Positions 9,364-35,493 of a stretch of 36,279 nt of DNA are shown here, piece after piece. This stretch comes from Gammaproteobacteria bacterium (GTDB taxonomy: Bacteria; Pseudomonadota; Gammaproteobacteria; CAIRSR01), in NCBI GenBank assembly GCA_963575715.1, contig CAUYTW010000110.1:1-36279 (forward strand), written 5' to 3'. Position 1 is the first letter of the stretch. The number at the start of each line of letters is the position of its first letter. The notes below the pieces were generated by a model, which was given only the letters and a program-made list of their open reading frames with translations, ran no database searches and was not told the origin of the DNA. Made by a program: the position numbers and the translations under genes.

Positions 9364-9714
9364 AGCTCACCCTGGATGGTGAGCGCCCCCGCCGATTCAA
9401 GCCATTACGTAGAGGGTATGCGGTTCTGTTAAAGAAGACCCGGGAGAGCAGGTAAAACCCGCCGGTCAGTGTCGATGATTACATCGCTACGGGCGGGAGG
9501 CCCGAATGTTATGCGCGTGGAGGACGATAGCCCCCAAGCGCCGGTGGTGATAGCACCATCGGAATGCGGGTGTCCGATGAATCGCGAACCAAACCAGCAA
9601 TACGAGGGAGGAAAACAGGGATGCTGACCGACTGCGCATTAGGGGCGGACTCCAAAAAAGCAACGTTGCCTCTCTTCGACCTTTGGGATCGAGAGATTTC
9701 CATGCCGAGGATTT
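9364..9714 (+). other. Structured non-coding insert between rnfB and rnfC
   Basis: No convincing gene lies in these 351 bp. There is a perfect 7-bp hairpin GCTCACC/GGTGAGC (9365-9384) right after the rnfB stop, a GGTGGT/ACCATC stem near 9543-9560, and a CTCT-CGA/TCGAGAG stem near 9670-9694. The end, GAGATTTCCATGCCGAGGATTT, directly precedes ATGA, the rnfC start. Its layout (terminal hairpin, TTTCC, then GGATTT and ATGA) resembles the 3' ends of the dispersed elements at 18387 and 34149, although the interior does not align clearly. I treat it as a possible divergent member of that family. Confidence 0.45.
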
Positions 9715-11148
9715 ATGAAGACTTTCCCCATCCGTGGCGGTATTCATCCTGATTACCGAAAAGAAGATACGAGCGAGAAGGCGATCGTCGTCTTGCCAAT
9801 GCCAGCCACGCTTTATATTCCCTTGCAACAACACACCGGCGCGCCAGCTGAGGCTTTGGTGATCGAGGGTGATCTAGTTAAAAAGGGTCAAGTCATCGCG
9901 CGCCATCAGGGAGCAATATCCGCCACTCAGCACGCACCGACCTCGGGACGGATCGCGGCGATCACCGAAGTCACTGCTCCGCATCCCTCTGGCCTGGCGC
10001 AAGCCACTATTCTCATCGAACCAGATAGCCGTGAGGAATGGGCGGAATTGCCCGAACCCATCGCTAACCCATTGATAGTTAATCCTGAGATAATCCGCCG
10101 CCGCGTTGCTGAATCAGGCATTGTCGGCATGGGTGGTGCTGCCTTTCCCTCTGCGGTAAAACTGGATTTGGGCAATAAATATAAACTCCAGATTCTTTTG
10201 ATTAATGGCGCTGAGTGCGAACCTTATTTAACCTGCGACGACCGCGTGATGCGTGAACACGCCGGCGAGATTATTGATGGTGCTCGCATCATGGCCCATG
10301 CGCTCGGCGTACCACGGATTATTATCGCCATCGAACAAAACAAGCCCCAGGCGCTCGACATCATGACCAAGGCGGCGGCTGATGTGAACAATATCGACGT
10401 GTTGGGGGTGCCGGTGCAGTATCCCATGGGTTCCGAGCGTCATCTCACCCAGGCAATCACCGGGCTGGAAACTCCGGCGCGCGGGCTGACTGCCGATATC
10501 GGCGTGGTTGTACATAATGTCTCTACCGCACGCGCCGTGCATCATGCCGTTCGTTTTGGCCGTCCCTTGATTTCCCGCGTAGTGACAGTGAGCGGCCACG
10601 CCGTACGTGAACCCAAGAACGTTGAAGTGTTGATTGGGACTCAGGTCGCTGACCTCATCCAGTTTTGTGGCGGTTTCGTAAGTCATCCCGCTTGCCTGGT
10701 CAACGGCGGACCGATGATGGGCCAGCCACTACCAGGTATTGATGTTCCGGTGGTCAAGGGCATGTCGGGGATTCTGGCGCTTGCCAACGATGAAGTGAAC
10801 GACGGTCAGGAAAATTCCTGTATTCGGTGTGGCAGTTGCGTCACTATTTGTCCTTGTGGCCTGGTGCCGGTAGAAATGGCTGCTTTCATTCGTAAGGATA
10901 TGCTGGACAACGCCGCCAAGTTGGGAGTCAGGGACTGTGTTTCTTGCGGTAGTTGCTCATGGGTATGTCCATCGCATCTCCCATTGGTACATTATTTCAA
11001 TTACGCCAAGGGTATGTTGAATGCACAGGAACGTGAACGCAGCAAGCTCGAACGAGTTAAAAAAATGGCCGAAGCGCATGCACAGCGTCTGGAAAAAACG
11101 GCGGCGGTCAAGCAGCGCGCACCTAAGCCAACGAATACATTGAAGTGA
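9715..11148 (+). CDS. rnfC: Rnf complex NADH/ferredoxin-type subunit RnfC
   Basis: A peripheral cytoplasmic subunit with the flavin/NAD site, exchanging electrons with NAD(H). The N-terminus FPIRGGIHP and the AIVVLPMPATLYIPLQQH block are family hallmarks. The glycine-rich GIVGMGGAAFPSA and LLINGAECEPYLTCD stretches form the Rossmann-like nucleotide-binding region. Two 4Fe-4S motifs lie near residue 368 (CIRCGSCVTICP) and 408 (CVSCGSCSWVCP). The 477-residue length is that of forms lacking the long C-terminal repeats of the enterobacterial protein. ATG 9715 abuts the structured insert at its ATGA. Confidence 0.97.
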   Translation: MKTFPIRGGIHPDYRKEDTSEKAIVVLPMPATLYIPLQQHTGAPAEALVIEGDLVKKGQVIARHQGAISATQHAPTSGRIAAITEVTAPHPSGLAQATILIEPDSREEWAELPEPIANPLIVNPEIIRRRVAESGIVGMGGAAFPSAVKLDLGNKYKLQILLINGAECEPYLTCDDRVMREHAGEIIDGARIMAHALGVPRIIIAIEQNKPQALDIMTKAAADVNNIDVLGVPVQYPMGSERHLTQAITGLETPARGLTADIGVVVHNVSTARAVHHAVRFGRPLISRVVTVSGHAVREPKNVEVLIGTQVADLIQFCGGFVSHPACLVNGGPMMGQPLPGIDVPVVKGMSGILALANDEVNDGQENSCIRCGSCVTICPCGLVPVEMAAFIRKDMLDNAAKLGVRDCVSCGSCSWVCPSHLPLVHYFNYAKGMLNAQERERSKLERVKKMAEAHAQRLEKTAAVKQRAPKPTNTLK

Positions 11149-11247
11149 ATCATGGAAGGCGAGCGACCCCCTCCACGTCCGGTGCGTCATTTGCAGTCTA
11201 AAATCTAACCACCTGATAAAGACTGGTAATTGATAAAAGTTTACTAT

Positions 11248-11315
11248 CCCAAGGGGCGGAAAAAACCGTCCCCTTTCCTCCCCGCCCTCAAGGGTGAGGT
11301 TTTTCGGAGACATTG
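11248..11315 (+). repeat. Solo 3' end of the ATGA-flanked element, copy C
   Basis: A GGGGCGG/CCGTCCCC stem (11253-11273) is followed by a hairpin from CCCCGCC, a TCAA loop and a GGTGAGG arm, then TTTTTCGGAGACATTG. ATGA at 11316-11319 opens rnfD. The layout matches copies A and G. The GGAG at 11306-11309, six bases before the rnfD ATG, belongs to the repeat, so the element appears to supply the ribosome-binding site of rnfD. The 100 bp between rnfC and this copy show nothing recognisable. Confidence 0.7.
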
Positions 11316-12398
11316 ATGACTACCTTCTCAGTAGCTGGGACGAGCGGCCCGTTTACCCACGCGCCCAACAGTGTTCAAAAAACGATGGGCACGGTGCTGT
11401 TGGCGCTATCTCCAGCTGTCGTTCTTAATCTTTATTTATTTGGTTGGCCTAGCATCCTTTTGTTAGCAGTTACCGTTGGCGCTTGCGTGGCAATTGAGGC
11501 AGCGTGCCTCATTCTCGCTGAACGACCGGTTACTGCGACGCTATCGGATAATTCGGCGATTCTGACTGGCGTGTTGTTGGCAATGAGTTTGCCACCATGG
11601 GCACCATGGTGGATCGGCGGCCTGGGATCGATATTTGCTATTGCCCTCGCCAAGCACGCTTATGGTGGCCTTGGTCAGAATGTGTTTAATCCCGCAATGG
11701 TGGCGCGAGTCGCGTTGCTTGTGTCGTTCCCGGTGGCTATGACTGCTTGGGTCAATCCGCATCCGTTATTTTCGGCCAACGCACCGAGTTTGGTCGATGC
11801 CTTTACCATTACCTTTGGCGGTGGTCCTCCCGATGCGATGAGCGCTGCCTCGGCGTTAGGATATGTCAAGACGGAATTATCGCGCGGAATTCCAATATCA
11901 CAATCGATCAAGAATGTGCCGGACTTGATGGATATGGCGTTGGGATATCGCGCTGGTAGCCTCGGGGAAACTTCAGCACTGTTGATTCTGATCGGTGGTC
12001 TATTCTTGATGATACGGGGTGTCATTTCGTGGCATACCCCAATGGGCGTGATGGGCGCACTATTTTTCATGGGAACCATATTTCATATTATCAATCCTGA
12101 ACGTTTCACCGATGGGATTTTTCATCTGATGTCGGGTGCCACTTTCCTTGGTGCGTTTTTTATTGCCACAGATTATGTAACTTCACCAATCTCAAAATTG
12201 GGACAATTGATATTCGGCATTGGCTGTGGGCTTTTAGCCTGGATAATCCGCACCTTTGCTGGTTATCCTGAAGGGATGGCTTTTGCGATATTGCTAATGA
12301 ATGGATTGACTCTCATCATCGACCAATATACTCGTCCCAGGGTCTTTGGACGTACTCGCAAAGGTGAACCACTATCGGTTAAGGAAAAATCTCCATGA
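11316..12398 (+). CDS. rnfD: Rnf complex membrane subunit RnfD (covalent FMN)
   Basis: An NqrB-related integral membrane subunit with about ten hydrophobic segments, 360 residues from ATG 11316 (a TTG one codon earlier is less likely given the GGAG spacing). Family blocks YGGLGQNVFNPAM and HLMSGATFLGAFFIATD are intact. The covalent FMN site of the family is a Thr in a motif of the form D-x-x-S-x-A-T. Here the aligned residues are D173-A-M-S-A-A-S179, so a Ser takes the place of the usual Thr. It overlaps rnfG by 4 bp. A repeat end forms its leader. Confidence 0.96.
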   Translation: MTTFSVAGTSGPFTHAPNSVQKTMGTVLLALSPAVVLNLYLFGWPSILLLAVTVGACVAIEAACLILAERPVTATLSDNSAILTGVLLAMSLPPWAPWWIGGLGSIFAIALAKHAYGGLGQNVFNPAMVARVALLVSFPVAMTAWVNPHPLFSANAPSLVDAFTITFGGGPPDAMSAASALGYVKTELSRGIPISQSIKNVPDLMDMALGYRAGSLGETSALLILIGGLFLMIRGVISWHTPMGVMGALFFMGTIFHIINPERFTDGIFHLMSGATFLGAFFIATDYVTSPISKLGQLIFGIGCGLLAWIIRTFAGYPEGMAFAILLMNGLTLIIDQYTRPRVFGRTRKGEPLSVKEKSP

Positions 12399-12994
12399 CC
12401 CAAAATACGATGACTCACGCGATAGTTTTAGGATCTTTTAGCTTTTTCTTTGGAGCATTGCTCGCAATAACCAACAGTATGACCGCTGAAGATATTTTGC
12501 TACGTGCGCGAGAAGATCGACAAAATTCAGTGAGCCAGGTGATCCCGCCGAATCTGTACGATAATAATCCTGTCACTGATAGCATTATCTTAAAAGATAC
12601 GGCTGGACAAGATATTACTGTTTATCGTGCCTTAAAAAATGGCAAGGTGACAGGCCTGGCTTATGAAATTCACGGTAGTGGCTATTCCGGCGAGGTTAAA
12701 TTAATGATGGGCGTTGATATCGAGGGTAAAGTTTTGGGGGTACGAGTAATTTCTCACCAGGAAACGCCCGGACTGGGTGATCGCATCAACGAAAAAAAGA
12801 CGGATTGGATACTACATTTTACGGGGTTGTCGCTTGGTAACCCACCCATTGAACAATGGAAGGTTAAAAAAGATGGAGGAAAATTTGACCAATTCTCGGG
12901 AGCCACCATTACGCCCCGGGCAGTGGTGGGCGCGGTGCGTGGAGGACTCGAATTATTCGCTATGCACCAAAAAGAAATGACGGAGGCACGCTAA
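12395..12994 (+). CDS. rnfG: Rnf complex flavoprotein subunit RnfG
   Basis: A membrane-anchored periplasmic flavoprotein, 199 residues, with one N-terminal transmembrane helix (IVLGSFSFFFGALLAI) and an FMN-binding domain. The ApbE target motif is D165-Q-F-S-G-A-T171, so Thr171 should carry covalent FMN. The conserved GYSGEVKLMMGVD and HQETPGLGDRI blocks are present. It overlaps rnfD at its start and rnfE at its stop (TAATG), giving a tightly coupled D-G-E unit. The upstream apbE supplies the flavin transferase. Confidence 0.97.
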   Translation: MTQNTMTHAIVLGSFSFFFGALLAITNSMTAEDILLRAREDRQNSVSQVIPPNLYDNNPVTDSIILKDTAGQDITVYRALKNGKVTGLAYEIHGSGYSGEVKLMMGVDIEGKVLGVRVISHQETPGLGDRINEKKTDWILHFTGLSLGNPPIEQWKVKKDGGKFDQFSGATITPRAVVGAVRGGLELFAMHQKEMTEAR

Positions 12995-13674
12995 TGGCAA
13001 CGAATTACAACCAAATCATCCGTGAAGGTCTTTGGGACAATAACGGTGTATTCAACATGATATTGGGTCTATGCCCAACCATGGCCATGACCACCAGTGC
13101 CACTAATGGATTTGGTTTGGGCTTGGCCACGGCGGTAACAATGATTGCGTCTAATTTATTGGTATCGCTGCTGCGTGGTTTCATTACTCAAGAAGTACGC
13201 ATTCCAGTTTACGTTGTGATTGTCGCGGCTATGGTGACGGTGGTGGATATGATGATGAACGCCTGGATGCATGAGCTGTATAAAATATTGGGATTGTTCA
13301 TTCCTCTGATCGTTGCGAACTGTATCCAATTTGCCCGTATTGAAGTTTTTGCCGCCAAGGAACCGGTATTGCCTTCAATAGTAGATGGCATTTTTTCAGG
13401 AATAGGTTTTATCATTTCACTTACGATTATTGGTATTGTGCGGGAAATCATTGGTTCTGGCACCGTATTCGCCGACGCCTCGTTATTATTGGGTCCAGCG
13501 TTCAAAATCATGGAAATACGCGTGCTACCCGAAGATATGGGAGGGGTTTTGATGATGATTCTACCGCCTGGCGGCTTTCTTGCAGTGGGTTTATTAATTG
13601 TAGTCAAACGCATGATTGAATCACGTATGGCTCGTAACATCCAAGTGGCCGATGTCGTCAACGCCATGGGTTGA
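12994..13674 (+). CDS. rnfE: Rnf complex membrane subunit RnfE
   Basis: An NqrD-related integral membrane subunit, 226 residues and about six hydrophobic segments, topologically paired with RnfA. The hallmark LGLCPTMAMTTSATNGFGLG contains the conserved membrane Cys, and a second one lies in IPLIVANCIQFARIE. The start codon overlaps the rnfG stop (TAATG). In most gammaproteobacteria nth follows; here an ATGA-flanked element and rnfH follow instead. Confidence 0.97.
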   Translation: MATNYNQIIREGLWDNNGVFNMILGLCPTMAMTTSATNGFGLGLATAVTMIASNLLVSLLRGFITQEVRIPVYVVIVAAMVTVVDMMMNAWMHELYKILGLFIPLIVANCIQFARIEVFAAKEPVLPSIVDGIFSGIGFIISLTIIGIVREIIGSGTVFADASLLLGPAFKIMEIRVLPEDMGGVLMMILPPGGFLAVGLLIVVKRMIESRMARNIQVADVVNAMG

Positions 13675-13689
13675 TGAGGAAAAAATAAG

Positions 13690-13951
13690 TCACCCCACGA
13701 CACAATACCTGGCTGCTTTAATAAAAGAAAAAGGCTAGTGTACTAGTCTAAGTCCAAAAATTTAGACTACATTTTGCAATGAAGTAAAAAACACATCTAA
13801 AAATTTCTTCAGTTTGTAACTTTGATAGTGGCAGATGTAGACGATTCTATAGGTGGAAAAAAACGGTTTATCACCATGTTTAACTAACAGGAGGACGGCG
13901 CTTCCTCTCCATGTCTTAAAGTACGTGGATTTTCCGCGCCGTAAATGCTGA
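13690..13951 (+). mobile_element. Omega-RNA-like element with internal deletion, copy D
   Basis: It begins TCACCCCACG like the full copy F. It then keeps CTAAGTCC and GACTACATTTTGCAA, the GTGGCAGATG-AGAC block, AACGGTTT-TC, and the 3' part AGGAGGACGGCGCTTCCTC with TTTTCCGCGCC. It is AT-richer and shorter (262 bp) than E-G because the middle is missing. The 3' end is followed by ATGA, the start of rnfH. Bases between rnfE and rnfH are almost entirely this element. Confidence 0.7.
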
Positions 13952-14236
13952 ATGAAAATAGGTGTTACCTATGCCATACCGCGACGTCAGGTTTTGCTCA
14001 ATATTGAGCTTCCTGATGGCGTTACCGTCAAAGATGCCATTGAGCGTTCAGGAATCTTAAAACAATTTCCTGAGATTGATCTAAAGCAAAATAAAGTAGG
14101 CGTATATGGCAAGATTACGAAGCTTGATACGGTATTGATAGATGGTGATCGTATTGAGATTTATCGCCCTATTACTGCTGATCCAAAAACCGTGCGCCGT
14201 AAAACTAAAGTAGATGGAGAAGAATCCGGAGATTGA
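13952..14236 (+). CDS. rnfH: RnfH family protein (ubiquitin-like beta-grasp fold)
   Basis: A 94-residue UPF0125/RnfH protein with the typical start IGVTYAIPRRQVLLNIELPDG, shown here only to its first blocks, and the GDRIEIYRPI motif. RnfH proteins have a ThiS/MoaD-like beta-grasp fold but lack the C-terminal diglycine; their function is unsettled. In many genomes rnfH sits next to ratA or the rnf genes. Here it closes the rnf cluster, 277 bp from rnfE, with element D between. Its ATG is the ATGA flanking that element, and no separate ribosome-binding site is obvious. Confidence 0.88.
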   Translation: MKIGVTYAIPRRQVLLNIELPDGVTVKDAIERSGILKQFPEIDLKQNKVGVYGKITKLDTVLIDGDRIEIYRPITADPKTVRRKTKVDGEESGD

Positions 14237-14283
14237 CTTTAGGATTTGATAGTAAGAATCAAAAACTGCTGGCAGATGTCAGG

Positions 14284-14623
14284 AACCCCACGCCTAAAGG
14301 CGGGGGCTTGTGAAGTCAAATTCACAAGTTCGAACTTGACCAGCCTAAGTCCAAAGTATTGGACTACGTTTTTGGAGTCATGACACCTACGGATGCGTGC
14401 CAGTCCGCAGCTCTGTCGCTCACCGTTAAACATCTTTAATGGGGTTAAGGAAGTGCGGTTAGCGGAACAGAGCTGCTGAAAACATTGGCGAGGCAAACAT
14501 AACCGGCGCAAGCCGAGTTGCCCTTACAGGCTGACAGCCGGGAAAGACCGGCTCCTAATTCTGAAAACCGCCCGTTTTCGTCCCTGCCACGGCTAAAGCC
14601 GTGGGGCTTCTCGCGGGCATTTG
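14284..14623 (+). mobile_element. Full-length omega-RNA-like (HEARO-type) element, copy E
   Basis: About 340 bp. The 5' hairpin is CCCCACGCCTAAAGGCGGGGG. Internal blocks are CAGCCTAAGTCC...GGACTACGTT (14341-14370), ACATTGGCGAGG (14482-14493) and GGCTGACAGCCGGGAAAGAC (from 14529). The 3' hairpin CCACGGCTAAAGCCGTGG ends near 14605, then CTTCTCGCGGGCATTTG. GTGA follows at 14624-14627. Here no gene begins at the flank; the sbcC 3' end lies just beyond. Both ends carry subterminal hairpins with a TAAA-type loop, as in IS200/IS605-class elements. There is no ORF of note inside. HEARO identity is inferred. Confidence 0.75.
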
Positions 14624-18386: not shown

Positions 18387-18765
18387 TCCATCCAAATCCA
18401 GCGCGGAAACCCCTGGCTTTAGCCATGGGGAGGAAGCGCCGCCCTCCTGTTTTTTGATTTTGAAGTTAAGAAAGAGCCGGTCTTTCCCGGCTGTCAGCCC
18501 TTACGGGCCTGGTGACACGAGTCTTGCGACCCGGCTCCCCTCGCCAATGTTGCAACGCAGCTTGGATTCGATACTTTGAATCTTGCGACAAACCGTTTCG
18601 CTCTTACCCCTGAGATTGTCTGCATCTGCCACTTTCAGCAGCCCTGAATTGAGGAAGCGCCCTAGGGTGAGTCTTTTACTTCGTTGCAACGTAGTCCGAT
18701 TGCTCGGACTTAGGCTGGTAAACCAGGCTTTATTCCATTAAAGCCCCGGCTTTAGCCGTGGGGTG
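18387..18765 (-). mobile_element. Full-length omega-RNA-like (HEARO-type) element, copy F
   Basis: About 379 bp on the minus strand, the best reference copy. It opens with the hairpin CACCCCACGGCTAAAGCCGG and then CAGCCTAAGTCCGA-GCAA-TCGGACTACG, a perfect stem-loop. TTGCAACGAAGTAA, GGGCTGCTGAAAGTGGCAGA, ACATTGGCGAGGGGAGCC and GGGCTGACAGCCGGGAAAGA follow. It closes with GGCGGCGCTTCCTCCCCATG, GCTAAAGCCAGGGG and TTTCCGCGCTGGATTTGG. The sbcC start ATGA follows after a short GATGGA overlap. Dense stems and no ORF indicate an RNA element. Confidence 0.8.
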
Positions 18766-24858: not shown

Positions 24859-25113
24859 CCACATTCGGCGCAGAAAACGTTGGCTTTAGCCATGGTAGAG
24901 GAAGCGCCGCCTCCTGTTTTTTCTTGCAGTTGAAGTTGAAGTGAAATTGCCGGTCTTTCCCAACCGTCAGCACTGTCTGCCGACAGACAGGCGACAGGCA
25001 GAAGGAAGCATTCGTAGGTCAGTCTTGTACTTCGTTGCAACGTAACCACGATTTGTAGATCTGGTTGGTAAACCAAGCTTTTTCCATAAAACCCCCGCCT
25101 TTTGCGTGGCATG
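24859..25113 (-). mobile_element. Shortened omega-RNA-like element, copy H
   Basis: About 255 bp, minus strand. The 5' hairpin is degenerate (CCACGCAAAAGGCGGGGG). TTGCAACGAAGTACAAGACT and the GGAGGCGGCGCTTCCTC block are kept. The 3' end is GTTTTCTGCGCCGAATGTGG, then ATGA, the znuA start. The middle is shortened and holds nested palindromes (CTGTCTG/CAGACAG and CTGCCTGTC-type units near 24974-25002) like the one inside copy G. Confidence 0.7.
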
Positions 25114-34148: not shown

Positions 34149-34278
34149 CCAAATTCGGCGCGGAAACCCCTGGCTTGAGCCATGGGGAGGAAGCGCCGTC
34201 CTCCTGTTTGTTCTTGAAGTTAAAGTTGAAATGAAGTTGCCGGTCTTTCCCGGCTGTCAACCTTTACGGGCCTAGTGA
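34149..34278 (-). repeat. 3' portion of the omega-RNA-like element, copy I
   Basis: About 130 bp, minus strand. It aligns with the 3' third of copy F: AGGCCCGTAAAGGTTGACAG, CCGGGAAAGACCGGC, GGAGGACGGCGCTTCCTCCC and CATGGCTCAAGCCAGGGGTT, then TTTCCGCGCCGAATTTGG. ATGA follows, the lpxL start. The 5' side is truncated at the accA 3' end, and its first bases encode the last accA residues. Confidence 0.75.
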
Positions 34279-35399: not shown

Positions 35400-35475
35400 G
35401 TCGGGGTAGCCGCCCCGCCTTGCGGCGGGAAAGCCCCCTAGGAACCGGACGAGCGAGTTTCCCCGCATCCGGCTC
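35400..35475 (-). ncRNA. Group II intron domains V and VI
   Basis: Domain V is the 34-nt segment 35475-35442 on the minus strand. GAGCCGGA pairs with TCCGGTTC, a two-sided bulge follows, and an upper stem GCGGG/CTCGC is capped by a GAAA tetraloop, as in bacterial group II introns. Domain VI follows as CTAGGGGGCTTTCCCGCC, loop GCAA, GGCGGGG and CTACCCCGAC. I place the intron 3' end at about 35400 (ending AC); a base either way is possible. Confidence 0.85.
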
Positions 35476-35493
35476 GCGCCTTGAGAAGCCCCG

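Follow-up and report, generated by a model that had tools for sequence, protein, structure and literature searches.

Insertion of HEARO elements takes place 5' of ATGA or GTGA, and IscB has a target-adjacent motif. These elements belong with the ISC (IscB–omega-RNA) transposons of the IS200/IS605 superfamily, whose RNA is captured by the Rfam family HEARO (RF02033). Bacterial MITEs and other non-autonomous derivatives of insertion sequences are also relevant, being short, high-copy, protein-free and probably mobilized in trans. An insertion that strikes an operon or a start codon is generally expected to be destructive. In initiation regions of the phage T4 type, a hairpin between the Shine–Dalgarno (SD) sequence and the start codon shortens the distance between them. 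The nearest parallel to the case described here comes from marine Beggiatoaceae, large sulfur bacteria in which many unexplained TAACTGA repeats lie directly before start codons, with a possible role in translation (PMC4679880). Those repeats are heptamers that bear little resemblance to an SD and are linked to no known transposon, whereas the sequence found here at gene starts is the right end of a transposon and includes an SD. A literature search returned no report of start-codon insertion or of SD-bearing ends for IS605/IscB elements. What is new here is that the right ends carry an SD and occupy start codons far beyond chance.

We analyzed a contig of 36,279 nt (hereafter the window), which is C110 of the draft genome G000 (3.70 Mb, 363 contigs). 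It was compared with relatives from the same genus (G001) and from another genus of the same family (G002 and G003). Pfam confirmed the operon order apbE, rseC, rnfA, rnfB, rnfC, rnfD, rnfG, rnfE, rnfH. An initial annotation had described several rnf junctions as invaded by one family of mobile, structured elements, and this is borne out. The operon holds four elements of one family, before rnfC (9715), rnfD (11316) and rnfH (13952) and after rnfH (14278–14623), and ATGA or GTGA adjoins every right end. They appear to be non-autonomous or decayed members of the IscB/omega-RNA (ISC, IS200/IS605-type) transposon family. The features, in window coordinates, are:

9364–9714 (+): insert between rnfB and rnfC, 351 nt versus 12 nt in G003 and 67 nt in G001; 44 matching places in its own genome
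9413–9656 (+): repeat of ~244 nt within the rnfB–rnfC insert, separate from the right end; about 40 genome copies
about 9657–9714 (+): S4-type right end before rnfC, with GAGG 4 nt upstream of the rnfC start codon
9715–11148 (+): rnfC; ATGA start codon adjoins the S4 right end; C-terminus shorter than in the relatives
at least 11218–11315 (+): element C, an S2-type right part with CGGAGACATTG immediately 5' of rnfD
11316–12398 (+): rnfD; ATGA start codon adjoins element C
about 13684–13951 (+): element D, a decayed HEARO with an S3b-type right end (AGGAGG, hairpin, 9 nt, ATG)
13952–14236 (+): rnfH; ATGA start codon adjoins element D
14278–14623 (+): element E, a full-length non-autonomous HEARO element; S1-type right end, then GTGA; not a gene start
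14278–14503 (+): HEARO/IscB omega-RNA of element E (Rfam RF02033, 146.7 bits, E 5.6e-31)

The right boundaries given earlier for elements C, D and E (11315, 13951 and 14623) stand, and their left boundaries move outward, from 11248, 13690 and 14284 to the values listed above. Element E shares with ISC elements the complete HEARO RNA and a 3' flank of the ATGA/GTGA type; it is 98% identical over the full 346 nt to another copy in the genome. Element C has lost the omega-RNA and matches the right part of other elements with 84% identity over 98 nt. Element D matches another element at 68.5% over 200 nt, and its S3b-type right end is 86% identical. Searches against Rfam gave no match in element C, element D or the rnfB–rnfC insert, even at E ≤ 1, and D is HEARO-related by DNA only. 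The rnf copies themselves are devoid of IscB and Y1 transposase genes. The suspicion that a divergent member precedes rnfC is confirmed by the S4 right end, which has 55 copies in the genome versus none for the reversed pattern. The ~244-nt repeat beside this end had no Rfam match in the rnfB–rnfC insert (even at E ≤ 1) or at another locus carrying it. Its copies partly form a uniform group, and it may be another mobile structured RNA.

Comparison with the rnf loci of the relatives, as had been suggested, showed that the inserts are absent there. The gap between rnfE and rnfH is 277 nt in the window versus 10–13 nt in G001 and G003. At rnfH, the window reads GGGTTGATGAGGAAAAA, element, ATGAAAAT, and G001 reads GGGTTGAGGAGGAAGCC, ATGAAAAT; at this one site compared, window versus G001, the insertion is seamless, with no target duplication, as for ISC elements. 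In G001 and G003, rnfC and rnfD share 4 bp (ATGA) at their junction, where the window has a gap of 167 nt. Thus an overlapping junction is not immune, contrary to the earlier view that such junctions were left untouched. At rnfC, rnfD and rnfH, the boundary between element and ATGA coincides with the start codon conserved in the relatives compared. An ATGA start is found in only four of the nine operon genes, rnfC, rnfD, rnfG and rnfH. All of these except rnfG have received an insert; rnfG overlaps the rnfD stop. The direction of the insertions had been attributed to the use of a start-codon ATGA. This holds for rnfC, rnfD and rnfH, and fails for element E because the GTGA behind it opens a frame of 5 codons. 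Beyond the rnf operon, ends at accC (G002) and at serC and aroB (G000) also adjoin exactly the orthologous start codon, and none is present in the relatives compared. In G002, the same rnfH start codon is adjoined by a different right end, so this site has probably been struck twice. The rnfA–rnfB gaps of G002 and G003 hold inserts of about 280–370 nt with CCCCTCTCC-type inverted repeats. These belong to another repeat family, and the native leaders are retained.

The family is abundant in this genome, with 129 HEARO matches; G001 has at least 68 and G002 at least 37. G003 has none, although it shares its genus with G002, which suggests a recent gain or loss of the entire family. Right ends of three further subtypes were found in G000 at ≤3 mismatches: 99 of S3, 142 of S2 and 55 of S4 (296 in all). 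Reversed versions of these patterns gave 0–1 matches versus 55–142 for the true ones, which excludes chance for the end subtypes. Flanking 234 right ends, ATGA was seen 178 times and GTGA 22 times. In sampled G000 DNA, ATAA takes the place of ATGA behind 10 right ends (e.g. C122:25019 and C303:15304), possibly reflecting mutated targets or lost start codons. Contig C351 has an intact omega-RNA, a gene for a 392-aa IscB (RRXRR, HNH) and an overlapping gene for a 130-aa Y1_Tnp transposase, the omegaRNA–iscB–tnpA arrangement of ISC elements. Based on the shared ends and flanks, this copy is a plausible source that would mobilize the others in trans. Departing from described ISC elements, most copies here are non-autonomous or reduced to the right end, and right ends bear an SD and are located at the starts of genes. 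On contig C62 (L272 5771–6742), an IscB-like gene adjoins a high-scoring HEARO RNA. The encoded 323-aa protein matches RRXRR only to position 150 and has no HNH match, as would a deletion derivative or an IsrB-like protein.

To assess how often the ends adjoin genes, we used the length of the open frame behind them as the measure of a true start; six loci were instead compared with relatives. Within 484 kb surrounding HEARO copies, 63 of 107 ATGA-adjoining ends are followed by an open frame of 80 codons or more, versus 18% of other ATGAs and 1 of 21 GTGA-adjoining ends. This sample is biased toward HEARO neighborhoods, so all 99 S3 ends in the genome were also examined. ATGA adjoins 93 of these, and at least 80 codons open in 71 of the 94 with ATG behind. 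Three further S3 ends illustrate the arrangement elsewhere in the window:

18392–18455 (–): S3-type right end; the ATGA start of an sbcC-like gene follows after 5 nt
24859–24922 (–): S3-type right end, immediately 5' of the start (24858) of a znuA-like gene
34149–34212 (–): S3-type right end, immediately 5' of the start (34148) of a lipid A acyltransferase gene

In all sampled DNA, 119 ends lie at starts. The pattern recurs in G002, where 19 of 20 sampled S2 ends are at starts. Pfam domains were found in 27 of 30 ORFs scanned behind ends, several beginning within the first residues. Called genes gave the same picture: 78 of 198 non-interior ends (39%) adjoin a called start, compared to 150 of 2359 non-interior ATGAs (6.4%; p about 1e-35). 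The gene calls are crude (58% coding, many cut genes) and underestimate starts, so they serve only as a conservative comparison. Only 4 of 202 ends are interior to genes. That near-absence would be expected if insertions within genes were simply lost and the intergenic remainder fell partly at starts by accident. Yet starts make up 6.4% of the non-interior ATGAs versus the 39% seen for ends, and SD conservation, described below, is restricted to copies at starts. Such plain survivorship is thus a very improbable account.

The subtypes differ in how an SD is placed. Typical S4 ends read GAGGATYT directly before ATG, and S2 ends read CGGAGACAYTG or CGGGGACAYTG before ATG. S3 ends consist of AGGAGG, a stem-loop and GAATTTGG before ATG; the predicted fold has the stem closed and the SD unpaired. 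Across the folded stem, the SD would lie about 8–9 nt from ATG, a workable distance because the hairpin, when folded, shortens it. This resembles initiation of the T4 type, except that the hairpin belongs to a transposon right end present in about 100 copies and the bridging is predicted from folding. As a guide to the anti-SD partner, AGGAGGU is reported for sequenced Beggiatoaceae (PMC4679880); that of this host may differ.

Presence of an SD goes together with position at a start. For S2, 31 of 38 GGAG ends are at starts versus 5 of 22 GGGG ends (p 1e-5; three genomes). For S3, the numbers are 67 of 81 with the SD and 4 of 13 without (p 3e-4), leaving 4 S3 start copies that have no recognizable SD. 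Mismatches in start copies amount to 4.5% for the SD and 20.5% for the inner hairpin, a more than fourfold difference in favor of the SD; the remaining copies have 19.6% and 15.8%, and their SD has no such advantage. The outer stem, like the SD, is conserved in start copies, and the inner hairpin drifts. We considered whether start copies are merely the youngest and rejected this, since the inner hairpin has diverged in them no less than in the others. Retention of the SD in start copies despite drift elsewhere in the end would be expected if selection acted on a functional ribosome-binding site. For S2, the GGAG and its stem partner GTCTCC vary jointly, so GGAG may be the mark of an older subfamily and not of selection on the site. 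Pairing of the S2 GGAG inside the stem might also mask the SD. In a test of RNA versus DNA pairing, stem changes to G-U versus A-C were 32:7 at starts and 17:7 elsewhere.

We propose that the ends of this IscB family are portable ribosome-binding sites retained by selection, and we give this reading a probability of about two in three. The family would insert seamlessly 5' of ATGA or GTGA. Where that ATGA is a start codon, insertion would displace the native ribosome-binding site and the element's right end would replace it, with S2 and S4 ends putting GGAG or GAGG a few nucleotides before ATG and S3 ends bringing AGGAGG close by folding. Genes would tolerate insertions at their start codons, and selection would then maintain the right end as their leader, whereas copies elsewhere would lose that stretch. 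Selection of this kind would be the cause of the enrichment at starts. Translation of three rnf genes (rnfC, rnfD and rnfH) would start from transposon-supplied sites; the likely point missed by the initial annotation is that the element ends carry the apparent ribosome-binding sites of the invaded genes. Across this genome, more than 100 genes seem to have acquired an element end as the landing site for ribosomes. It is also probable, though with somewhat less assurance, that the built-in site makes insertion before start codons nearly harmless. In this bacterial family, well over a hundred genes, housekeeping genes included, would then have had their native translation start regions replaced, with the S3 hairpin bridging SD and ATG, a recurrent, genome-wide exaptation as translation leader. 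Compared to MITEs, which these copies otherwise resemble, the precise abutment on start codons and the SD-specific conservation are distinctive.

Selection need not be the cause of the enrichment if the transposase, or the state of the target DNA (a longer motif or an exposed single strand), favored start codons, the SD being incidental. The very high start fractions of S3 and of S2 in G002 (19 of 20 sampled ends) fit such targeting, as do the two different ends at one rnfH codon. But groups close to consensus are little enriched: S1 ends, which are of the GTGA type and have no SD, are at a start in 1 of 20 cases, the GGGG-type S2 ends are rarely so, and S3b ends are so in 3 of 11. The S3b ends carry AGGAGG, and their scarcity at starts also counts against the portable-site reading. 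Preferential conservation of the SD, moreover, is confined to start copies. Targeting is a live alternative but an unlikely one, if the least improbable of those considered.

Another idea is that the hairpin and SD of the right end do more than provide an SD and have come to serve many genes jointly as a control device, either a translational switch or a protein-binding site. The joint conservation of outer stem and SD in start copies agrees with this, as do the competing folds around GGAG in S2 ends. However, the inner hairpin drifts freely. The genes behind the ends are of mixed function, several of them housekeeping, and the Pfam scan of 30 ORFs behind ends found no regulator or common function. 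Such a regulatory leader is doubtful, more so than targeting.

The initial annotation took the inserts mainly as RNA blocks that change subunit stoichiometry or release guide-like RNAs. The intact omega-RNA of element E and the intact iscB in the genome speak for it. Only element E keeps an intact omega-RNA, so guide-like RNAs cannot come from three or four blocks, and their release is possible at most from E. Scans across the rnf operon found no excess of promoter- or terminator-like sites over shuffled sequence. Altered stoichiometry of the rnf subunits would in itself be plausible, but as the principal meaning of the inserts this account has hardly any likelihood, slightly less even than survivorship.

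If the end does supply a ribosome-binding site, an IscB-type transposon has a safe harbor defined by four bases, and many genes would have exchanged their native translation signals for one common, mobile signal. It would be a directly testable case of mobile elements turning into regulatory parts in bacteria, and would offer a ready-made set of natural leaders for studying translation. It would also caution against treating HEARO/omega-RNA copies as guides only.

Two other features were noted. A second rnfC homologue, 43% identical, is present in the same genome (G000:C305:13223–14593). The window also contains a match to a group II intron domain at 35400–35477 on the minus strand (Rfam RF00029, 55.7 bits).
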